This document shows positions 11,129-47,082 of a DNA stretch of 64,000 bases, in pieces. Numbering within the stretch: the stretch's first letter is position 1; every line of letters begins with the position of its first letter. The stretch comes from Podochytrium sp. JEL0797. Its lineage: Eukaryota > Chytridiomycota > Chytridiomycetes > Chytridiales > Chytriomycetaceae. Both the position numbers and the translations under genes were made by a program. The notes beneath the pieces were generated by a model. It was not told where the DNA came from. It worked only from the letters and a program-made list of their open reading frames with translations, and ran no database searches. Location: contig JADGJG010000009.1 in NCBI GenBank assembly GCA_027596195.1, positions 54,456 to 118,455 of the forward strand. The letters are read 5' to 3'.

Positions 11129-13027
11129 TTATAACTTTGACTCAATCTCGGGAACACGAATGCTGCCGTTTCGAACAGCATCGCGCAACACCCTTCGCAG
11201 AATTTTCCCACTCGGCGATTTCGGAATCGCGTCGACAAACACAACTCCCCCGCGAAGCCACTTGGGCGTCGACAACCGGTCCTTCACAAACTGTTCAATC
11301 TGTTTCGCCGAGCAGTGCGAGCCTGATTTCTTGACGACAAACGCGCGCGGAACTTCACCAGCAGATTCGTGCGCTACACCAATAACGGCACAATCGGCAA
11401 CCATTGGATTTTCAAGCAGGCAGGCCTCGAGTTCGGCAGGTGCAACTTGGGAGCCTTTGTACTTGATGAGCTCCTTGAGGCGGTCCACAATGTAAAACAA
11501 TCCGTTCTCATCCACGCGTGCAACGTCGCCTGCAGAAAGTTGCATGTTAGACTGGCGTTCCAGGCGGGTTTCCATAAACGAGTCTTACCAGTATGAAGCC
11601 ATCCATCCGCGTCAATGGTCTCAGCTGTGGCCTTGGCGTTGTTGTGATAGCCTTGTTTAAAGTTAGAGATTGAAAACGCGCGAAACCGGAACAAACCTTT
11701 CATCAAATTCGGGCCAGTCACCCAAAGCTCCCCCGCTTGATTGACAGCCAATTCCTTTCCAGAATCGGGATCCACAATCTTGGCTTTCATATTGGGCAAC
11801 AGCAATCCGCACGATTTCGGGTTCTCCAGTGACACTGCAAAATATACTGAAATCAGTCGACTTCCTTCAATCCATCGAACGAAAGGAATACGAAACTCGA
11901 AACTGGAATCATGAGACACAAAGGCGACGTCTCTGTCATTCCAAATCCCTGTCTCGTTCGGATCCCAAGCCGCTTGTAAACCAACGCACTCAATTCGGGT
12001 GCTAATGGCGCCGCGCCAGAAACCAGACTTCTCAACTTTGGAAACTTGAACTGATCCACCAATGGATGTTTCCCCAAGGCAATCACAATCGGAGGAACCA
12101 GATGCGCGCTCGTGACACCATATAACGCGAGGCAGCGCAACAGCTCCTTGAAGTCAAACTTGGGGAAAACGACCACCGTCAATCCGAGTCGGAACGAATG
12201 ATGCAAATGAACGATGAGCCCGTAGATATGATAGAATGGAAGCACGGCGATCCACGTGTCGCTATCGGGAACAACCTCCCTGGTGCTTTCAACGTAACCC
12301 ATGAACTGCCGCGCGTTGGCCACCGCGTTGTAATGAGTCGTCAACACGCCCTTGGGGAGTCCCGTGGTTCCAGAGCTGTAGCACAGATACGCTGGTTTCT
12401 CCGTGATCTCATCTTGAGTGAACGTCACGACCACAGGTTTCTGTCGCCTTCCTTCCTCCAAAAGCTGCGAAACAGTCTTGGCAGCCCATCCGTTCTGCCC
12501 CTCAATCGCCCCACCAGTTGCGTCACAAGCCTCATCGCCCAAGAAAACCACCCGATCCAAACTCAAACCAAGGCGCTCCACAACCTTTATCGCAACCTCC
12601 TCGCACTTTGGATGCACAAACAAGAATTTGGCTCCCGAGTCTTTGATCTGGTACGCGAGCTCTGCCACCCCATGGTTCGAGTTGGCTGGCGAAATCGTCC
12701 CACCCGCTTTCAGGACAGCGTGCACGATCACGGGGTATTCCAAGTGATTGGGGCTCACGATGGCCACGGTATCCCATTTTTGGAAGCCAAGGGACGTGTA
12801 GAGGGACGCGGAGAGGGCGTCAATGTCACTCAAAAGGCGGCGATAAGAGACGGTTTTTCCGGAAGCTGAGTCGATCAGGGCCGTGCGGGTGCTCGTGCGC
12901 AGGTACGATGGGAAGATTTCCGAATGGATATCTGATCCGTAGGTGAGTTGGGTGGTTGCGGGGCGGTTCGCAGCGCCAAACCTGTGTCGAGCGGGACGCT
13001 GATCGCAGGGAATCGGGATTCGAACAT
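11129..13027 (-). CDS. 4CL-like acyl-CoA synthetase 1, peroxisomal (SKL)
   Basis: ANL-superfamily enzyme that adenylates a carboxylic acid and transfers it to CoA. The AMP-binding P-loop [13 protein letters not shown] is present; other marks are GFGMTETSP (A5), LHTG followed after an intron by [20 protein letters not shown] (A8 hinge), and [12 protein letters not shown] with the catalytic lysine. It ends ESKL, a canonical PTS1, so import into peroxisomes is expected. Exon 1 is 12982-13027 (MFESRFPAISVPLDT), then a 50-bp intron keeps frame into DIHSEIFPSYL. Further short introns lie near 11530-11590, 11650-11695 and 11838-11920. It is the most diverged of the four paralogues, separated from the others by the DUF1003 gene. 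The substrate cannot be read from sequence; hydroxycinnamates, fatty acids or oxylipin acids are all possible for this clade. Confidence 0.88.
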
Positions 13028-13262
13028 CTTTACTTGCACACATCAAATCAAAACAAAGCTGCGTTATGACTCCATCTCCCTATCTCTCCTCAAGATGCAT
13101 GTTCGAAAAGAGAATGTCGGTGGCTTGGGATTGTTTGTTTCTGAAAGGGCGAAAAAAATTGGCAAGCCTATTCGCCCAGGCGCGTGGCTATTGCGTGGCC
13201 ATCTCTCGCCCAGGAACGGAATAAATGAAGGAAAACAAAATTGTTACAAATACTGTCTCGAC

Positions 13263-15399
13263 ATGACTCCACCGCATAGCACATCGCTGGACGTTCTGTT
13301 GTCTCCCGACAGCCTACCCACCACCTGTGGCGCCTTCGAAAACGATGATGACATCTTGCAAAGCTCCACCGTCTTCTCGGCTCCATCCGGACACCCTCAA
13401 CCAGTGGCTTCGGCTCCTATTTCTCATCTCGATGACGTGAAGCGAATCTGTGCCATTTGCGACAAACCACTGCCCTTGCCGATCGAGACCCAAACCGTCG
13501 AAATCGGCACCCTCAAGCCACGATTCCTGCGGGAGCTCCAGAAAATGTACCCCTTGCGTCAGTTGACTGGTACCCAGCGCGTGTGTTCGCGGGACTTGGC
13601 GGTGCTCATGCAGAGCCGTATCGACACGTTGATGGAGCAAGACCAGAGTGGGTTGGCGCGCCTTCAAGACGAAGCCATGAAGAATCTCGGTGAATACGAA
13701 CACAACGAGCAACACTGGCAAAGGCAGTTTGATTTGGATTTTACCTTTGGTGAACGTTGCGCAGACGTTGTGGCGCGATTTGGTGGATCGTGGAAGTTCA
13801 TTGGGATTCTTGTTTCCTTTTTGGCGGCCTGGTGTGCGACAAACGTGTAAGTACTTCCTTCTCTCTTCGCTTAGATTCTGATTTTGTTCCAAACAAAGGT
13901 TGATGGGCCAGCCATGGTCGACTGTTGCTCCTTGGGACCCTTACCCCTTCATTCTTCTCAACTTGTTCCTCTCCATGATTGCCGCTCTTCAAGCCCCCGT
14001 CATCATGATGTCCCAAAACCGTCAAGCCCAGCTCGACAAGCTCCAAAACGATCACGTCGCTACCATTATTCTCCGCTCCGAAAATCAAGTTCGCCACATC
14101 AACGCGAAGCTTGACCATTTGCTGTCCGAACAGTGGCGCCGGTTGCTCGAAATCCAGCAGACACAAACGGATTTGCTCCAAATGCTGCAATTCCGTAACA
14201 GCACCACCCACGGTCAACACGACGATTTCGCAGCTCTCATGAAAACCCCAGGCCAGTCGAAACCTGCACCACACGTGGACACGTCCCTCTTCACGATTCC
14301 CAATACCACTCCCTTGATGGGCGGAACCACTTTCCTTGCCCCGCCGGTCAATATGAGTACCCTCCCGATGCCAGCTCTCGCGTCTGACGCTTCAAAAGAG
14401 CATTGGTCCGTTGAAACGCAACCCGACGACCACATGCGCATGCTGCTCGCCCTCAAGTTTGGAATCCCCACCCCTGCCAGTCAAGCCAACCAGGGTCTTA
14501 TTTTCGCGCACTGGCACACGGATGGAGACAACTTTTTGGGATTTGTGAGAGACATCAAGATCGAACTCAAGCAGTCTTCTCCAGTGATTCGCAGAGTTGT
14601 GTATGATCTCACGTTCAACGATCCCAATGCCACTTTGGATGATGTTTTGGCTGGAGAGGGTACCGTTGAGTTGAGAAACGAGATGGACGAGGATTGCATG
14701 GAGTTGGAAGGTAATTTCATCCACCGCGATACAACAAACCTTCAATCTAAAACTATCCAATACGCAGGTCGTTACTTGCGCCTCGAAATCAGCCACAGGG
14801 GCCAAACTCCAACCGTTTTCGCGAACGGAGACCTCCCCCCACGGTACAAGTCCACCTTTGACAGCAAGCGCGAAGACAGAATCACCGATTTCTGGAAAGC
14901 CAAGCTCATCAAAATCAACTTCACCTACTCTCCACCACACCAAATTGCGCGCCTTATTCTCAAAGAGGGTCAAATCTGCGAGAACATGCGTGTCGATTTT
15001 TTCCCCGAGAACAACGTGAACCACGCCAAAGTGTTTATGCGCCGCTTCAATCTTTCCGAGTTGGAGTCGTCCGATCTTTCTTATATGAGAGAGGTGGTGG
15101 GGCCGCGTCCTTTGGACAAGAGCTGGATTCCCGTGGCCCACGCGTTGTGGCCCGAGAACTCTGTTCCTGGATCCAACTTGTTTTCAGACCCCAATGGTCC
15201 CAACTCCGGTGCTGTGGCGGGAACGGGTGGATTTGGCAGTGGAGATGATGCTATTGTTTCTGGTGGAGGTGAAGATGGGGAGATGTTAATGGAGGCTGGA
15301 CTTGTGACTGTGGATTTCAAGGAGAAACTAGTTGGGCCTGGTGCTTATGTGTTTCTGTGTGATGAAACTCGTGTGGCTTTCCGTGGAGTTATTGTCTGA
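13263..15399 (+). CDS. DUF1003-domain membrane protein with long C-terminal extension
   Basis: Two exons (13263-13846, 13899-15399) give about 694 residues. After a disordered N terminus there is a CxxC element (ICAICDKPLP). The DUF1003 core follows: FTFGERCADVVARFGGSWKF, a first membrane helix, then WDPYPFILLNLFLSMIAALQ as the second, then a QAPVIMMSQNRQAQLDK signature and a coiled segment. This closely resembles bacterial DUF1003 proteins (function unknown). A ~350-residue C-terminal part, with alternating polar/aromatic segments typical of beta-rich domains, has no family I recognise. A 57-bp in-frame stretch at 14711-14767 with GT..AG ends could be a further intron. The gene sits inside the acyl-CoA synthetase array, head-to-head with synthetase 1 and converging on synthetase 2 (97 bp between stops). 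Confidence 0.8.
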
Positions 15400-15495
15400 G
15401 GATGTGGTTGGTGTTGGTGATGCATTATAGTGGGTTGTTGGAATATATTTTTTGAGTTTCAGTTTTTCAAGAAAGCAATATTCAACAGCCAGCAT

Positions 15496-17376
15496 TCACA
15501 ACTTTGCTTTCTTCAAGTTGTCAGCATCCTGCACTCTCAACACGCGTCGCAAAATCTTGCCACTGGCCGATTTGGGAATCTCGGCAATAAACTCGACCCC
15601 ACCGCGCAGTTTCTTGTGTGGAGCCACTTTCTTGTCAATGAACGCGACCAACTCGGCTTCGGTGCATTTCACGTTCGGCTAGAGAAAAGCGAGAGCATAT
15701 CAGCAACAGAATGAAGAAAGGACGCAGGCAACACAAACGAACCTTCAACACAACAAACGCGCGAGGAACTTCACCTGAAGCCTCATGCGGTCTTCCGATA
15801 ACAGCCACATCTGCAACAGCAGGGTGCTCAATCAAATAAGCCTCCAACTCGGCCGGAGCAACTTGGAACGCGTTGTACTTGATCAACTCCTTCAACCTGT
15901 CAACGATATAAAAGAATCCGTTGGCGTCAACCTTGACAATGTCTCCGGTGTGGAAGAACCCGTCCTTGTCGATGCACTCGGCGGTGGCCTTCGCGTTGTT
16001 GTGGTAACCCTTCATGACATTGGGACCCCTGACCCAGAGCTCGCCTTCTAACCCGATGGGAACATCCTTTCCAGTTTCTGGGCTAACGATTTTCGCTTGA
16101 AGGTTGGGAAACATGAGACCGATCGACTTTGTGTTCTTCAACGCCACTATGGAATCAGGAGAATCAGTGACTCTCAATGCAAGACACAAACACAAAAATT
16201 GCTTACGCGAAACTGGCATCATGTGCGTGATCGGAGAGGTTTCAGACAGTCCGTACGCTTGAAAAGTGGGCACCCCGAGACGTTGGTGAATCTCAGAAAC
16301 AATTTCGGGAGCGAGTGGAGCGGCAGCACTCGCGAAGCTGCGCAACTTGGGAAACTGAAACTTGGTCACGATTGGGTTTTTGGCCAACGCGAGCGCGATC
16401 GGAGGAACAATGTGGGCAATCGTGACTTCGTATTTCGACAAGGACGCGAGAAAGAATTCGAGTTCAAACTTGGGGAAGACGACCAAAGCGCAACCTTGGT
16501 GCAGGCACGCGTGGTACAAAAAGAGTCCGTAGAAGTGGAAAAAGGGTAGCACCCCCGTCCACACACCGCCTGGTGAGATTTCACGCGTTTTTGAGTTGTA
16601 GAAGTCGAATTGTAGGACGTTCGCGATCACGTTGAACTGTGTCGTTTCGACACCTTTGGGGAGGCCCGTAGTTCCAGAGCTGTAGCACAAATAAGCCGGT
16701 TTTTGGGTGATTTCCTCGTGTGTAAACTTGACAACAGGGGCAGGGACTGTGTTTCGGGAGCAAATCTGGTTGAAGGTACGACGCGTCGGGCCTGGATACG
16801 TCACGCTTGCGTCGTCAAACAACACAATGCGATGCTCTGGGATTCCAGCAATCTTTGCCGCCGCGAGCGTTGTTTCGAGGAAGGCCGGATGTGCGAAAAT
16901 GTACTTGGCGCCGGAATCTTTGAGTTGGAACGCGAGTTCGTTTTGGTTGTACGTTGGATTGGCGGGGGACACGGTTCCACCAGCTTTCACAAGGGCGTGG
17001 ACTAGGACAGGGTATCTAAAATCCGAAATGAGAATTCGAAAGACACTTCGCTCTCGGATTCCTTGGCACGTGACTCAACTGCATATGGTTCGGCGAGAAC
17101 ACGGCAACCACATCCCATTTCTTGAACTTGAGCGAGCCATAGAGCGCGGCAACAAGCGAGTCAATTGACTGGATCATGCTCTTGAACGACACTTTCTCTC
17201 CGGTGACTGCATCGATCAAAGCGGTGGCGTCGCTGTGTTTCTTGTCCGCCGAGAAAATCACGCTGTGGCCGTCAACTACCGTGCTCATTTAGCGAATGCA
17301 AAGACTGTTATATCAAGCGAAACATACCTGTGTCGGGAATGGTGGCAGCTCCCCACTTGGACTCAAAAATCGTCAT
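15496..17376 (-). CDS. 4CL-like acyl-CoA synthetase 2, peroxisomal (AKL)
   Basis: Second paralogue. Exon 1 encodes [16 protein letters not shown]; a short intron follows, then a region with [19 protein letters not shown]. Core motifs: [53 protein letters not shown]. The last exon ends with [17 protein letters not shown], where AKL is a functional PTS1 variant. Hydrophobic tails in the raw frame, such as the one after FVVLKV, are read-through of short introns, not protein. It lies 118 bp upstream of the stop of synthetase 3 in the same direction. Family and ligase reaction are clear; the substrate is unknown. Confidence 0.88.
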
Positions 17377-17493
17377 TTTCGTATGATTCTTTTTCAGTGT
17401 CTTTTCCCAGTCTTTTCCAGCGAAAACTGGGCGAAGGCGGCATTGATAGACTGGAAGAAAAGAAAGGGAGATGGTACAACGTTTATTGAAAGA

Positions 17494-19424
17494 TCACAGC
17501 TTCGATTTCTTCGCGCTCGCCGCTTCCTGGGCGCGTTTCACGTTCTCTGCATCCTGCACTCTCAACACGCGACGCAAAATCTTTCCACTCGCAGCTTTGG
17601 GAATTTCAGCAACAAGCTCGACCCCACCACGAAGCTTCTTGTGCGGGGCCACCTTCGCGTCAATGAACGCGACAAGCTCGGCTTCGGTACATTTCACGTT
17701 CGGCTGTGAAGCAAAAACAAACATGTTGAATTTTAGCCGCGAGAAAACGAGATTTGTACAAACAACACGCACCTTCAACACGACAAACGCGCGTGGAACC
17801 TCCCCTCCAGCCTCATCCGCTCTCCCAATCACCGCCACATCCGCCACCGCCGCATGCTCTAACATGTACGCTTCCAACTCGGCCGGAGCGACCTGGAAAC
17901 CCTTGTACTTGATCAACTCCTTCAACCTGTCAACGATGTAAAATAATCCATTTTCATCGACCTTGGCGATGTCTCCGGTATGGAAGAACCCGTCCTTGTC
18001 GATAGAGTCAGCAGTTGCTTTCGCATTGTGGTGGTAACCCTTCATCACATTGGGACCGCGGATCCAGAGCTCGCCTTCGGACCCGAGGGGAGCGTCGGTT
18101 CCGGTTTCAGGGTCCACGAGTCGGGCTTGGATGTTGGGAAACAGAGGTCCAATAGATTTGGGGTTCTTCAACGCCACTATAAATCGCGTATGTGAGCACG
18201 CATTTCATAAACGCGTACAATTTAAAAAGTGGGTACGTACACGAACGCGGCATCAAATTCGTCACTGGAGACGTCTCAGTCAGCCCATACCCTTGATTCA
18301 CGGGCACTTTAAGGCGCTCATTCACAGCGACGACAAGGTCTGCAGCAAGAGGAGCCGCTCCGCTCATGAAACCGCGCAACTTTGGGAAAGTGTAGTTGCT
18401 CACCATCGGGTGTTTGGCCAACGCGAGCGCGATCGGGGGCACGATATGCGAAGTCGTGACTTGATATTTGGCCAAAGAAGTCAGGTAGAGTTCGAGATCA
18501 AATTTGGGGAACACAACGATGGCGCAGGATTGGTGGAACGCCATGTGGAGCGAGATCACAAGACCATAAATGTGGAAGAATGGCAACACTCCCGTCCAAA
18601 CGTCCCCTGCAGACACTTCCCTCGTCTTGCTTTGGTAAAAGTTCATTTGAAGGACGTTCGCGATCACATTGAACTGCGTTGTTTCGACACCTTTGGGGAG
18701 GCCCGTGGTTCCAGAACTGTAGCACAAGTATGCTGGTCTTCTCGTGATTTCCTCACGCGTAAAAGTGACCACTGGTGCAGGGAGAATGTTGTGTGCGCAA
18801 ATCTGGTTGACGGTGCGACGCGTCGGGCCTGGATACGTCACGTTCGCATCATTAAACAACACGATGCGGTGCTCTGGGATTCCAGCAATCTTGGCTGCTG
18901 CGAGAGTCGTGTCGAGAAAGGCTGGATGTGCGAAAACGTATTTGGCGCCGGAATCTTTGAGCTGAAAAGCGAGTTCGTTGATGTTGTACGTTGGATTGGC
19001 GGGAGACACCGTTCCGCCGGCTTTGAGGACGGCGTGGGCAACGACGGGGAATCTGAAATCGGAATATTCTTTCAGTGGACTGCTGCGGACCTCATGGGTT
19101 GCGCGCAAGGGCGGATAAACTCAACTGCAAATGATTCGGCGAGAACACGGCAACGACATCCCATTTCTTGAACTTGAGCGAGCCGTAGAGCGCAGCAACA
19201 AGCGAATCGATCGATTGGAGCAGCGCCTTGTAAGACACTTTCTCTCCGGTCACAGCATCAATCAACGCAGTGGCGTCGCTGTGTTTCTTGTCCGCCGAGA
19301 AGATCACGTTGTGAACGTCAACTGCCATCACGGATCAGCGCGTATGGGGATATGCGTAAAGAGCTAGTCAACCTGTATCAGGGATGGCGGCTGAGCCCCA
19401 CTTGGATTCGTAAATGTGGACCAT
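17494..19424 (-). CDS. 4CL-like acyl-CoA synthetase 3, peroxisomal (SKL)
   Basis: Third paralogue, very similar to synthetases 2 and 4 in sequence and intron placement. Exon 1 encodes [17 protein letters not shown]. Motifs: [66 protein letters not shown]. The C terminus is ASAKKSKL, a canonical PTS1. Only 63 bp separate its start codon from the stop codon of synthetase 4, so its promoter must lie within or at the end of that gene. This is compatible with recent tandem duplication. Confidence 0.88.
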
Positions 19425-41668: not shown

Positions 41669-42186
41669 AATGGTTTGAGTGCAATCCAAGCAACGTGTCC
41701 AAGTTTACTTCTCTTTCAGGCTTTCTTTTTTTATGGGGAAATATTGGAGAGTAATTATGAAGAGAGTCCAAATGGAATAAAATTCAGTCTTTATTTCGTC
41801 GTTTTCATAACCCACTGCGCGTTCCTCGCCTGTGGGGATAAACAAAATTGACCCTCCCTCATACTGAGGCGCCAGTCCAACCGACATTGGTCCGCCCACT
41901 AAATTTGGCTTTTCCTCATTCACCGTTATTCCTCGAAACCCTCCCGGAATGCTGGGAGCAAAACCCCCTCATGGGGTTGGGCGGTTGAATGTATCCGTAA
42001 CTCATCTCAAAACCCTTCCAACGTGTCATGTCAAGTGATATGGGACTGTTCCCATCACTGCGCATCTCCATCCTCCACCTGGCTTGTCATCCATTCCAAG
42101 AGGCCCGCGTTGAGGGAGCTGAGCTCCCTTCTCTTGCGCGCGTCTTTTTGCAGCCCTCGCTCTTGATATTTCGTGTTCTTGCCTGT
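41669..42186. other. Intergenic region, nothing recognised
   Basis: Flank between CLEC16A and the possible transposon end. A minus-strand open frame at 41705-41923 has no known domain and is probably chance. Confidence 0.35.
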
Positions 42187-42880
42187 CAGGGACGGACCGC
42201 CCCTTAGGCGAACCCAGGCGCCGCCTGGGTACTTTTTTAGAAGGTACCCTTGGGAAATAATGTCTTCGTAGTGAAGTTGGAAGAGCGTCGGCTTTACAAT
42301 TTTGATATTGATTTGGTATGTGGGATCAACTTGTCTTCGTCGAAAAATGAAACGCGAAGCATTTTTCGATTTTTTTTTACTAGCATGGCTTACATCGCAG
42401 AAGCGGCGGTCATTCGGCGATGTGCCATGTTTGTAATGAGGCAGAATTCGGAGGATCGAATGGCTACATGGTCAGCCTTTGCGACTTGCTGCCAGTGGAA
42501 CCCACTTTATCGAACAAGTAAGAACGCTTTGCAAGCTCCGTGGTTTTTTAACACCAGGTCAGAGAAGTCAATGTACCTGGTGTCCTTCCCAGAGCCATCG
42601 CTGTGCCAAAAGTACAGACGGTGATTGGCAACCTCACGGACGCGCCGCTGCAGTGCACCAGTCTTCTGCTACCATCACGACAAGAGAAAACAACCAGAAC
42701 ATCTTTGACAATACGGTTTTGGTGGTTATCAATGAGCTCAAGTTCCGTTTTCCCGACAAGTCTACTACGCTCGAAAAAAAAAAATTGACTCGTTGGAAGC
42801 AAGAGCCAATAATCTTGTAACCATCACAAGGGCGGTTGAACGCGGTTCATTTCCAACTGCAGGTTCGAAAAAAAAACAAA
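42187..42880 (+). mobile_element. Possible remnant of a hAT-like DNA transposon
   Basis: 42187 begins CAGGGACGGACCGCCCCTTA, followed by AGGCGAACCCAGGCGCCGCC, which resembles terminal sequences I know from hAT elements (CAGGG.CGGAC.G.CCC.TAGGCGAAC). It includes a near-perfect ACCCAGGCG/CGCCTGGGT palindrome and then a GGGTAC..GTACCC pair. Downstream, a short stretch reading NIFDNTVLVVINELKFRFPD recalls the late part of hAT transposases. No matching right terminus or 8-bp target duplication was found, and frames are broken. This is a tentative call resting on motif memory. Confidence 0.35.
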
Positions 42881-42885
42881 TTTCA

Positions 42886-44294
42886 TTAACCTCTTGTTAA
42901 ACTAATCTCGGTGCTCTCAAGAAACTCACATCGAGGCTCGACTTGAAACTCCCAATCAATGCGCTGAATAAACGTGCCGACCACAACCTTAAACAATCTC
43001 ATCCCGATGGAAGCAGCCGTACAACCAAACGGGGCCGTGCTTGTTTCAGTAAGCCCATCGACGAATCCGAAAGCAAAGACTTGCTTCTTGAGCTCCGGGT
43101 TGTCGAGGAAACGACGCGCATTGAACGCGTGGCTGTTCTTGAACAGGGATTCGTCGCGGTGGATCAAGGGGATATATCCGAGCAGGATTTCGCCCTTTTT
43201 GGCTGAGTAGAAGCCGTTGGAGGTGGGGATTTGCAAGTCGCGGCGAGCCTCCTTGAAGATTAACTGTTGGAAAGATGGTTAACGAATGTTGAAGGGGAAC
43301 ACAGAAGGAAGATTTTACCGTAGGACGCGCGAAGAAACGCATACACTCCCACATGAAGGAATCAAACAAGGGAAGAGTTTGGCTGTCAACAGTCGAAAAG
43401 CTGAGTTTCTGGCTGTCGATTTCCGCGCGCAACTGCTCCAAAGTGACAAAGTCCTTGCCAAGCATCGCACCAGATCCTCGGTTGGATAATTCATGTCGTT
43501 GGCCATCTTCTTGTATTCGTGGAACAGTGGCGACACGTTGACAACAGCCAGTCCTTGTTCGACACAGCACTTGATCTCCTCACTGAGATTAACACTCAGC
43601 AGCACCTCACCAAGCTTGGTGCTCAACCAGGAGCTAGGGCGTAAAGCTAAAACTGAGTTTCGTGGATACACGGACAGAGCTGTCAACGAGACTGGGCAGC
43701 ATCCCATAATCCATTCAAAGATGAACCCCCCTGCAAGACGGTGCGCCACCTCCTGCAAATTGTGAGTCAAGGGATTGTCTGTCATTGCACCCAACAGCTC
43801 AAGGAAAGAATCGTTCTGGGACTTGTTGAGGGCTGGTTGAATGGCCGTCGCGCGAGAGCGCATGATCTGGATCGTGAGTTTGCGTGCGAGTGTGTGTCCA
43901 TCGGCATCGCTGGCCACTAGAGCGGGTGTCGCGCTCTTGATGAAGAATTTGGGGATGCTGGCAGGTCCAAAGCACTTCTTGCCAGTTTGACGATCGAGAG
44001 ATGTGGATGGCGCAGCGAGGAACCATTTCCCGCTGACATGATCTGTCAAGGCGATGCAGTCAACGCCCAGCTTGACGCGGAACACGGGCTCCCCGTTTGC
44101 CACAACCTTCTTCTGGATGATGTATCCTGGACTTCAGCCAGAAATTAGACTCATTTTTCCCTCTATGATTAGACTTACACGTTCAAAAAAAACTGGATTG
44201 CATTGACGAATGGCCCAACGCTGAAAAGTCCGCCGAAGGAGATGAGCCAGTCAATAAGACTGTCAGTGCTAACAGGTCGCTTTGGGGGGGTCAT
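42886..44294 (-). CDS. CYP74-clan cytochrome P450 (AOS/HPL-like), possibly disrupted
   Basis: Resembles plant allene oxide synthase/hydroperoxide lyase rather than ordinary P450s. Exon 1 (44180-44294) starts MTPPKRPVSTDSLIDWLIS; an intron leads into PGYIIQKKVVANGEPVFRVK. CYP74-like marks: GKKCFGPASIPKFF, SDADGHTLARKLTI, LFDSFMWECMRFFARPTV (the E..R helix), GEILLGYIPLIHRDESLFKN, FNARRFLDNPELKKQVFAFG, and the heme loop TETSTAPFGCTAASIGMRLF, matching TE.PT..NKQCAGKD with Cys conserved. Near 43480-43500 the frame shifts by one base, exactly where helix I should be, and roughly 28 residues of helix I seem missing. Either a pseudogene, an assembly error or an unusual enzyme. Divergent from the lipoxygenase-like gene, with 169 bp between starts. 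Confidence 0.68.
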
Positions 44295-44463
44295 TTCTTT
44301 TCCAGCGGTTCCGTGTGGATTCGGAGGTTGAAAAAGACTTCTGGATGAGCCTCCGTGAGGAGTGCTGGGCTGGGCCGTGTGGCAGTGAAAACTGACTGTG
44401 CATTTGCAAGTGGCAGTGCACAGATTTACCCGCCCCCCAGTCAGACGCGAGAACAAAACTGAA

Positions 44464-45900
44464 ATGATCCTCCTTCTTGTCATTAAGGTGCTCCTTGAAG
44501 TCTACGGTCGCATTGTCAAGCTGTTCTTGGGTGTTTCGGACGAGGAGCTCGCACCGCAAGTCAAACATCGCTTCGAGTCGGCCGAGCCATGGTCCCTCGT
44601 GGATATGCGCGAGGATAAGAAGCAACTCCCGCTGGTCATGGCCAAACCGTCAGAAGAGGCTATGCTCTCTTTTCTCTCCCAAGAAGTCCCTCCGCTGTCC
44701 TTGGACATTCTGGGTGGAACCTTCCATGCCCTCATTCGCATGTGGAAATCCCCGCATCTCATTCACTGCGACCAAGACCACCTCGAGTTCCTGATCAACG
44801 ACACCTTCTACGGTAGTTTGTTAATGGCCGGACAAGAACCAGGCAGCTGGGAGACCGACATGAGACATCACTGCCTCCTCGAACCTCTTCCGGGCTTCTT
44901 TGCGCATGGAATCCTGGCCAAATGGCGCATGGATGAAGACTCCCGCTTCGTTCTCGAATCTATCGCCATTGACGGTCAAGTTGTGACACCAGCCAAATCG
45001 TGCTGGTCGCTGGCCCTTTTCCATTTGCTTGTGGCACACAGCAACGAGTATCTGTTCACAAGGCACGGCGCTACTCATGCGATTATGTCCAGGGTTCAAA
45101 CATGTTTGCGTAGCACAACTCTGTCCACGGACCATCCACTCAACCAATTCTTGGCGCCCCACTTTGGCCATGTGGTGGCACTTGATTTCTTTATTTTTTC
45201 CCTCGCCTCCAAACACAGCAGCCCCAGCAACCCATTCCCTTTCAAGTTGAAATCAATGACGGATCTCTTTGCCAAAGGGGTGCATGATTTTGGCCAAGTG
45301 AGTTCTCTCGCTTCATTCTACGACCAAAAAATAATTCTAATTTATTTTCAGGAACGTGCTCCGACGCGTTTCAACGAGGTGTTGGAAAATGCTCGTGCAG
45401 TTATATCGCGACATGCCGAGGACTTTGTCTCCCAGAACGGAGCCGCTTTTTGTGGGATTCAAGATTTCGCCGACGAGCTTCGCTCAACTTGCTTTCCAAG
45501 TTTGCCTCCGCGCGAGCGATTCGACACTACAGCCGCCATTGATCTACTCTCAGAGATTATATTCACAGCCACTTTTCTCGGCGCCGTTGACCACGTCGGC
45601 TTGACTGATGATGGCGTCGCCAACGGAACTTGGTTTCGCATCCGTCGCCCCTTTGACCATCGCTCCCATCGCGGTTGGGTGCCTTCGAGTGTGGATATCA
45701 AACGCATTGATATTTTGCAGAGAGTTGTGTTTACGGAGGTGTTCAGTGGTGAGAGATGCAGTTCTCTGTTGAAGAACGTGACGTATGGGAAGGGTTGCCG
45801 CCTCCACCCGACCCAATTCAAAGACGACCTTTTGGCGCTTGAGCAAGAACACCCAACCATCTTCAACTTGGACAAGATTCCGGCCTACATTCACATTTAG
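44464..45900 (+). CDS. Lipoxygenase-like protein with altered metal site
   Basis: Two exons (44464-45297, 45352-45900) give 460 residues, shorter than fungal lipoxygenases (around 600). Lipoxygenases insert O2 into polyunsaturated fatty acids. The core helix resembles the family: after SCWSLALFHLLVAHSNEYLF comes RHGATHAIMSRVQTCLRS, then DHPLNQFLAPHFGHV, matching H..TH...E....R......HP...L.PH. An H-x3-H pair, as in a manganese lipoxygenase, is present. The second metal helix reads EIIFTATFLGAVDHVGL, where FT.T.QHHALN is expected: the third-ligand His is Gly and the Asn position is His. The C terminus ends YIHI, keeping the terminal Ile ligand. The start is the first ATG after the divergent gene. 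N-terminal PLAT domain absent, as in fungal forms. Confidence 0.58.
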   Translation: MILLLVIKVLLEVYGRIVKLFLGVSDEELAPQVKHRFESAEPWSLVDMREDKKQLPLVMAKPSEEAMLSFLSQEVPPLSLDILGGTFHALIRMWKSPHLIHCDQDHLEFLINDTFYGSLLMAGQEPGSWETDMRHHCLLEPLPGFFAHGILAKWRMDEDSRFVLESIAIDGQVVTPAKSCWSLALFHLLVAHSNEYLFTRHGATHAIMSRVQTCLRSTTLSTDHPLNQFLAPHFGHVVALDFFIFSLASKHSSPSNPFPFKLKSMTDLFAKGVHDFGQVSSLASFYDQKIILIYFQERAPTRFNEVLENARAVISRHAEDFVSQNGAAFCGIQDFADELRSTCFPSLPPRERFDTTAAIDLLSEIIFTATFLGAVDHVGLTDDGVANGTWFRIRRPFDHRSHRGWVPSSVDIKRIDILQRVVFTEVFSGERCSSLLKNVTYGKGCRLHPTQFKDDLLALEQEHPTIFNLDKIPAYIHI

Positions 45901-46083: not shown

Positions 46084-47082
46084 ATGGACCCGATCCTCGA
46101 AGCCGCCGCCACCGCCAACCTCTCCAATCTCCAAGAGATCCTCACCTCCGACCCAGACGCCATCCACATCCGCGACCCAACCACCAACGCTTCCCCACTC
46201 CACTTTGCCGCCCAAACCGGCTCCCTCGAATGCATCGAGCTCCTCCTCACTGCCGGCCACCCCTGGAACGAAGTCACATTCGACCACAAGACCGCTGCCG
46301 AATGGGCCGTCGAGAAGGGACACCAGGACGTATGGGATCGTTTGTTGAACGAAGGCATTCGGGTCGAAATGCTGTTGGCCATTCTGGGCAAACCCGAGTT
46401 GGATGAGGAGACGGAGCAGAAACTGCTGCCAGTCGATGCGACAGACTACTTGAACAAAAAGTTGACGTACAGCGAGGACGGCCAGAAGCTTCTCGACGCG
46501 GATGGGAATGGAGTCATGATGGGTTGGGAAGCTCCCTTGATGCTCAAACACGCCAAAGTGATTGCTCCGGTTCCTGGCAAGAACGTTTTGAACGTTGGAT
46601 TCGGACTTGGGATCATCGACACGTACTTGCAGGACTGCAAACCGGCATCACACACCATTATTGAAGCGCACCCGGACGTGTATGCTTTCATGCTCGAAAA
46701 GGGATGGGACAAGAAGCCGGGCGTCAAGATTCTGTTTGGGAGGTGGCAGGATGTGATTGATCAGTTGGAGGTGTACGACGGCATCTTTTTCGACACGTTT
46801 GGCGAGGATTACGACGCGTTGAAGGAGTTTCACGAACTGTTGCCCAATATCCTCAGCGAAGACGGCATTTATTCCTATTTCAACGGTCTCGCGGGATCCA
46901 ACCTCTTTTTCCACGACGTGTCGTGCGCGATTGCTGAATCGGATTTGATGGATATGGGCATCAGCACCAAGTTGGAAAAGATTGATATGGGAACACTGGG
47001 TGATGAGATCTGGGATGGTGTCCGACGCAAGTATTGGACTCTTCCCGTTTACAACCTTCCCACATGCAAGTTTGAATTGTAA
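46084..47082 (+). CDS. RMT2: RMT2-like protein arginine delta-N-methyltransferase
   Basis: SAM-dependent enzyme that in yeast methylates the delta nitrogen of an arginine in ribosomal protein L12. Intronless, 332 residues. The N terminus carries ankyrin-type repeats (DPTTNASPLHFAAQTGSLEC, LLTAGHPWNEVTFDHKTAAE) as in fungal RMT2. The methyltransferase part has NKKLTYSEDGQKLLDADGNG, the MGWEAPLM element, the SAM-binding motif KNVLNVGFGLGIIDTYLQ, HTIIEAHPDVYAFM, YDGIFFDTFGEDYDAL and ends in YWTLPVYNLPTCKFEL. Length and domain order fit the family. It converges on the large coiled-coil gene (59 bp between stop codons). Confidence 0.92.
   Translation: MDPILEAAATANLSNLQEILTSDPDAIHIRDPTTNASPLHFAAQTGSLECIELLLTAGHPWNEVTFDHKTAAEWAVEKGHQDVWDRLLNEGIRVEMLLAILGKPELDEETEQKLLPVDATDYLNKKLTYSEDGQKLLDADGNGVMMGWEAPLMLKHAKVIAPVPGKNVLNVGFGLGIIDTYLQDCKPASHTIIEAHPDVYAFMLEKGWDKKPGVKILFGRWQDVIDQLEVYDGIFFDTFGEDYDALKEFHELLPNILSEDGIYSYFNGLAGSNLFFHDVSCAIAESDLMDMGISTKLEKIDMGTLGDEIWDGVRRKYWTLPVYNLPTCKFEL

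Follow-up and report, generated by a model that had tools for sequence, protein, structure and literature searches.

The window studied here, the whole 64,000-nucleotide stretch that was analysed, is contig C889:54456-118455 of Podochytrium sp. JEL0797 (Chytridiomycota), whose genome assembly holds 24.4 Mb in 995 contigs. Between positions 42886 and 45900 it carries a cytochrome P450 gene of CYP74-clan kinship and, head-to-head with it, a gene that probably descends from lipoxygenases; together they look, by sequence, like an oxylipin gene pair that is a remnant or has been repurposed, and less like a pathway proven to work. The P450 starts with an ATG at 44294 on the minus strand and the lipoxygenase-like gene with an ATG at 44464 on the plus strand. 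The genes are divergent, and the coordinates confirm the 169 bp between start codons reported in the original prediction, which was made from the letters alone. NCBI holds both genes, as HDU98_011730 (lipoxygenase-like, 460 amino acids) and HDU98_011729 (the P450), and two window proteins are entered there under Podochytrium sp. JEL0797. The fungal-type genome that had been predicted is thus borne out as that of a chytrid, from a genus of the Chytriomycetaceae; diatom parasitism is recorded for other Podochytrium species in an excerpt of PMC10643281. The parts of the pair are as follows:

44179..44294, minus strand: P450 exon 1, in our own model 38 codons and a further two bases; the splice to exon 2 yields FFLNVPGYIIQKK
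44132-44178, minus strand: P450 intron 1, GT...AG
43466..44131, minus strand: P450 exon 2 as far as the lesion (GYIIQKK...MNYPTEDLV), 80/218 identical (37%) to CYP50918A1 residues 117-333
43457..43479, minus strand: lesion, about 70 nucleotides net absent, with a change of frame and without any N
43319..43465, minus strand: P450 stretch past the lesion (MLGKDFVTLEQLRAE...WECMRFFARPT), carrying ExxR, 47% identity to P0003 residues 357-407
43264-43318, minus strand: P450 intron 2, GT-AG
42886..43263, minus strand: last P450 exon, with FNARRF (Arg of the ERR triad) and FGCTAASIG (heme Cys region), 58/115 identical (50%) to CYP50918A1
44295..44463, no strand: the 169 bp between both start codons, which may be a shared promoter
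44464..45297, plus strand: lipoxygenase-like exon 1, carrying W181, Y196 and H201
45298..45351, plus strand: lipoxygenase-like intron, 54 nucleotides, GTGAGT...TTTCAG, removed in NCBI protein P0001
45352..45900, plus strand: lipoxygenase-like exon 2, carrying H359, T363 and the C-terminal I460

A codon-use model, trained on a lipoxygenase fusion gene of contig C614 and on the neighbouring gene 46084-47082, scores above zero in every exon piece tested of both genes and below zero in the intron, and the modelled frame beats the other five.

The kinship of the P450 is clear. With phmmer, CYP50918A1 of Plasmodiophora brassicae matches it at E 1.5e-86 and is the only non-self protein at E<=0.01 among 6091 candidates. 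This search covered 5.8 billion proteins and required candidates to share 5-residue words, and it may therefore have passed over more distant relatives; none of 60 matches from a pattern search of prokaryote genomes was confirmed. Our model and CYP50918A1 are identical at 169 of 432 aligned residues (39%). The ERR triad (E301, R304 and R360/R361 of the model) is conserved between them, and the heme ligand is present, C391 aligning to the FGC of CYP50918A1. The last exon alone matches PF00067 at 1.6e-5. The genome has many P450 exons, with 42 matches to that family, and yet CYP50918A1 run against the whole genome scores 258 bits at this gene and at most 13.2 bits at every other place. We reject an ordinary fungal P450 on the strength of this gap and of the single non-self match. 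Among solved structures, plant CYP74A comes first both for our model alone (2.4e-8, followed by CYP7A1) and for a two-sequence profile (4.2e-9, followed by prostacyclin synthase). One ranking speaks against this placement: CYP50918A1 alone puts prostacyclin synthase slightly over CYP74A in the PDB. Taken together, these matches uphold the predicted assignment to the CYP74 clan rather than to an ordinary fungal family: as judged from its sequence, the P450 has its kin in the CYP74 clan and descends from a clan enzyme resembling CYP50918A1.

As a rule, CYP74 enzymes work without O2 and without a reductase. In what Grechkin et al. reportedly found in 2021, CYP50918A1 converts 13-hydroperoxy-linolenic acid to bicyclic oxylipins. 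It is cited as the hydroperoxide bicyclase of P. brassicae and a CYP74-clan enzyme in excerpts of PMC10813956 and PMC12843491, and a tree legend in the former names it as a clan member. The chytrid P450 is 38-39% identical to it along most of its length and shares the ExxR, FNARRF and heme Cys context, and the block FNARRFLDNP.LK.QVF.FGFV. The two differ in that CYP50918A1 has a rhizarian host, whereas the chytrid protein has a much shorter N-terminal extension and is assembled with a broken frame and no I-helix segment. It also adjoins a lipoxygenase-like gene; the comparison covered the proteins themselves. Further marks of the clan are a nine-residue insertion in the heme-binding domain and a PPV domain, and over this part the alignment covered two members. 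Plant CYP74A allene oxide synthase (2rch, 2rcm), although the best solved relative, aligns over just about 130 residues, and the chytrid heme motif reads FGCTAAS, unlike the ...N-K-Q-C-A-G given for the CYP74 family in an excerpt of PMC3990721.

The chytrid enzyme is not whole in the assembly. Past MNYPTEDL (near 43470) the P450 frame enters unrelated sequence, and the conserved MLGKDFVTLEQLRAE resumes at 43465, out of frame with what precedes it; an expected stretch of about 75 bases is represented by five. What is absent is the counterpart of CYP50918A1 residues 334-358, some 25 residues of the I-helix including F343-N344, and with them the I-helix groove region and its conserved Asn, which excerpts of PMC8124189 and PMC10813956 call essential to catalysis by CYP74 enzymes. 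The missing segment is not hidden nearby as a further exon: tblastn against the window finds nothing better than E 0.6, over 19 residues, antisense in the neighbour gene. Nor does an intron bridge the frame break: a GT...AG stretch that spans it, found by eye, is just 17 nucleotides and too short, and the I-helix would still be missing. The NCBI model (P0002) takes a different start, and its longer intron deletes the ExxR exon; its C-terminus maps to 42058-42668, reaching into a dispersed repeat. With the ExxR exon spliced out and this run-on into the repeat, the model is unusable as a P450. The original prediction had treated the P450 as a gene. The coding region is real, but, as that prediction had not noticed, no continuous frame runs through it: to read it takes two introns and a switch of frame near 43466. 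Since the frame is broken and the I-helix segment is missing, the assembled P450 cannot encode a whole enzyme.

In the modelled exons we saw no further stop or frameshift beyond the lesion, and this, together with the coding-like codon use, suggests that the loss was recent. The same signs could be those of an assembly fault, which weighs against a genuine loss: the deletion would then be an artefact of assembly or allele, and the organism would have an undamaged hydroperoxide bicyclase of the CYP74 clan, or a related enzyme, supplied by a peroxidase-PLAT-lipoxygenase fusion (described below) or by the neighbour. Such a fault would fit a lone lesion in exons that are otherwise open, flanked on both sides by conservation with CYP50918A1, in a 995-contig draft. 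However, the region contains no N, and we found no direct repeat there to account for a collapse. There is one 16-nucleotide imperfect inverted match nearby (43445-43460 with 45414-45429, 88%), which we take as chance, and the NCBI model likewise failed to build a whole P450 from the assembly. We consider the artefact rather unlikely; a recent loss of the I-helix segment would fit best.

The neighbour is less easily placed. Its spliced model of 460 residues equals HDU98_011730 (100% identity and coverage), and its open frame runs to 503 codons with 0 stops; the 54-nucleotide intron is in phase and stop-free, so that the frame would stay open even if it were retained. PF00305, the lipoxygenase family, is the only Pfam match of the protein, at 12.9 bits and E 0.039. 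This is under the Pfam cut-off of 23.6, and as proof of a lipoxygenase we discarded it. The protein matches neither a PLAT nor a peroxidase domain, and in the database search nothing but the protein itself reached E<=0.01 among 5345 candidates. The case for descent rests instead on a gap-tolerant profile test, a local alignment in which long gaps are cheap. With the window protein left out of the profiles, it scored z 8.0 against 11 lipoxygenases and z 8.8 against the 6 chytrid ones, relative to 300 shuffles. The controls, namely the reversed protein, two P450s and the N-termini of the peroxidase-type proteins P0004 and P0009, all stayed within |z| 1.8 (100 shuffles each). The alignment is colinear through the C-terminus, with identities of 27% to the genome's own lipoxygenase (117/430), 22-25% to five further chytrid lipoxygenases and 18-20% to three plant enzymes. 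With the intron left in, four of five solved-structure matches are lipoxygenases at the same stretch, none of them significant (E 0.55-0.74).

Several results pull the other way, and they are what one would expect if the gene were unrelated to lipoxygenases and the resemblance were chance. The Pfam score is under its cut-off, a plant-only profile gives just z 2.3 in the same test, and the gap costs of that test were our own choice. HMMER returned only 5.9 bits (best shuffle 3.1), 2.6 with a chytrid-only profile (5.8) and 0.5 with a plant-only one (5.3); of 2000 shuffles made, 784-873 were scored per profile, and the protein tops all of them in one profile of three. In hhalign, the protein reached 0.99% probability against the aligned lipoxygenases, at the wrong place, and was outscored by one of 10 shuffles. 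AlphaFold2 models are poor, with a predicted local distance difference test (pLDDT) of 35 for the protein alone, and a pLDDT of 43 and a predicted template modelling score (pTM) of 0.41 when nine lipoxygenases are supplied. Foldseek ranks lipoxygenases first for both models, but we set this support aside, one value (E 0.011) being circular and the other E 0.18 with probability 0.06. In a tree of 10 lipoxygenases the window protein is unplaced (supports 27-35), on a branch of about 3.9 substitutions per site. With HMMER weak and hhalign failing, the kinship stands mainly on the profile test and the colinear alignment. Against chance are set the z values of 8.0-8.8 with controls within 1.8, the colinearity to the C-terminus, the fact that the lipoxygenase family is the sole one matched in Pfam, and the four structures that fall on one stretch (none significantly). 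A chance resemblance thus seems to us very unlikely, and the gene 44464-45900 is probably of lipoxygenase descent, a reading with statistical support short of certainty. Of what had been predicted, lipoxygenase ancestry is probable (z 8.8), while a significant PF00305 hit did not materialize (12.9 against 23.6 bits); the lack of PF00305 similarity, which had been named as a ground for abandoning the idea, is a borderline matter, the family being the sole Pfam match and yet under its cut-off.

Whatever its ancestry, the protein has lost the usual metal site. Lipoxygenases bind their metal through three His, a variable Asn and the C-terminal Ile. In the window protein Y196 stands where the first iron-binding His is found in all nine aligned lipoxygenases. 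H201 and H359 are kept (His in 9/9 of the others), T363 replaces the Asn (present in eight of the nine, the other having Gly), and the protein ends in Ile, I460, as do 5/9. The EP motif past the second His, invariant in the nine, has become S209 and R210 (E>S, P>R). The full ligand set is therefore not there, and ordinary hydroperoxide making is most likely gone with the first His. A 4-residue insertion ahead of H359, which leaves the assignment of the third ligand uncertain, detracts from this account of the site. A neutral relic so diverged should have picked up many stops, and there are none in 503 codons; we therefore read the protein as constrained, probably departed from ordinary lipoxygenase chemistry. 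Might half of a separate route still work, with the protein active as a dioxygenase through a metal site that includes Tyr? Its intact frame of 460 residues and the two His and terminal Ile that it keeps would allow this, but the Tyr in place of an invariant ligand, the lost EP motif, the insertion before the third His and a branch near 3.9 substitutions per site make us give this little credit.

Hydroperoxides may be made elsewhere in this organism. Canonical lipoxygenase exons lie on contigs C614 and C556, so the pair is not needed as a hydroperoxide source. At C614 3988-8223 (minus strand) they belong to a 1216-residue protein, P0004, named 'Hydroperoxide isomerase aloxe3' at NCBI, that joins a Peroxidase_2 domain (PF01328; 3.1e-42, one exon), a PLAT domain (2.4e-6) and the lipoxygenase. 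The middle stretch, past the chloroperoxidase/UPO-type heme peroxidase and before PLAT, has no Pfam match. Full-length relatives with Peroxidase_2 and lipoxygenase, 41-50% identical, occur in Physocladia obscura (three), Chytriomyces confervae and Chytriomyces sp. MP71. Among the six fusion proteins (P0004-P0008, P0010) only P0004 has a PLAT match; five keep PCP and EHD, which we take to be motifs of heme-thiolate peroxidases, and P0010 has neither. In P0010, from P. obscura, Arg also replaces the terminal Ile, and this may be another decayed chytrid lipoxygenase. The lipoxygenase part of the fusions aligns with the window protein to the C-terminus at 22-27% identity, whereas the window protein lacks a peroxidase or PLAT match, has Tyr for the iron His, has lost EP and is shortened in several segments.

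Peroxidase_2 was found at two places in this genome, C614 and C969, both of fusion type. The C969 protein, P0009, is partial and stops at the contig end ahead of any lipoxygenase domain, and the lipoxygenase half on C556 stops at a contig end as well; both contigs carry stretches related to the P0009 N-terminus, so the two halves may be one gene split by assembly. PF03098, a heme dioxygenase/peroxidase family, occurs at three places (C258, C112, C94). A peroxidase using the hydroperoxide of its own lipoxygenase half would presumably parallel the coral allene oxide synthase-lipoxygenase (3dy5), which is among the Foldseek structure matches. To have lipoxygenase and peroxidase in one self-contained protein would be unusual as a pairing of enzymes. 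Fungal Ppo (DOX-CYP) fusions similarly couple fatty-acid dioxygenation to a heme-thiolate step, but they do so with a heme dioxygenase and other P450 families in a single polypeptide. In the chytrid Rhizoclosmatium, DOX-like genes without a P450 domain are reported in an excerpt of PMC9579011.

To explain these results we somewhat favour a head-to-head oxylipin-pathway gene pair whose pathway has ceased to be intact. The P450, ancestrally of the CYP74 clan, would have been disabled, probably recently, by loss of its I-helix segment and a frameshift. Its neighbour would be a fast-evolving relative of the chytrid lipoxygenases, without the peroxidase and PLAT domains, that kept its frame open; having lost one iron-binding His, it may have taken on a non-catalytic role or may work with a changed metal site. 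Hydroperoxides in this organism would then more likely come from the peroxidase-PLAT-lipoxygenase fusion. A former partnership of the two genes is suggested by their adjacency, and that this is adjacency in one genome only counts against the proposal. The original prediction went further, to a working route with separately encoded lipoxygenase and CYP74 enzymes. With a catalytic essential lost in both assembled genes, the I-helix segment in one and the iron His in the other, that route is not borne out. Its nearest surviving form, a hydroperoxide bicyclase of the CYP74 clan, gained or retained by a fungus, that is whole in the living organism and shares a promoter with a rebuilt lipoxygenase-derived partner, giving a separately encoded fungal oxylipin route beside the fused one, strikes us as distinctly improbable.

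Directly downstream of the P450 gene and outside the pair lies the dispersed repeat met above:

42187..42846, no strand: dispersed repeat with copies on other contigs, namely C55 (93%), C272 (85 and 93%) and C770 (80%)

Further away, at about 11853-19108 on the minus strand, the window holds three tandem open frames with an AMP-binding motif, 4-coumarate-CoA ligase-like by eye.

As assembled, the pair sets an outlying and unusual fungal member of the CYP74 clan beside an altered lipoxygenase. Clan enzymes are described from plants, some bacteria, algae and animals in an excerpt of PMC8124189, and one of PMC9410191 reports that no CYP74 or LOX genes were retrieved in Agaricus bisporus. Among the matches listed in the open-access literature, by titles and starts of abstracts, we found no description of a CYP74-clan gene or of a lipoxygenase-peroxidase fusion in a chytrid, and no study of chytrid oxylipin chemistry. 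A chytrid member, even a disabled one, extends the clan from plants, bacteria, algae, animals and one rhizarian into the fungi; its presence there points either to a transfer of the gene or to its early loss in other lineages. Several chytrids live on diatoms, and the presence of both the pair and the fusion in one genome suggests that chytrids may have an oxylipin chemistry of their own.

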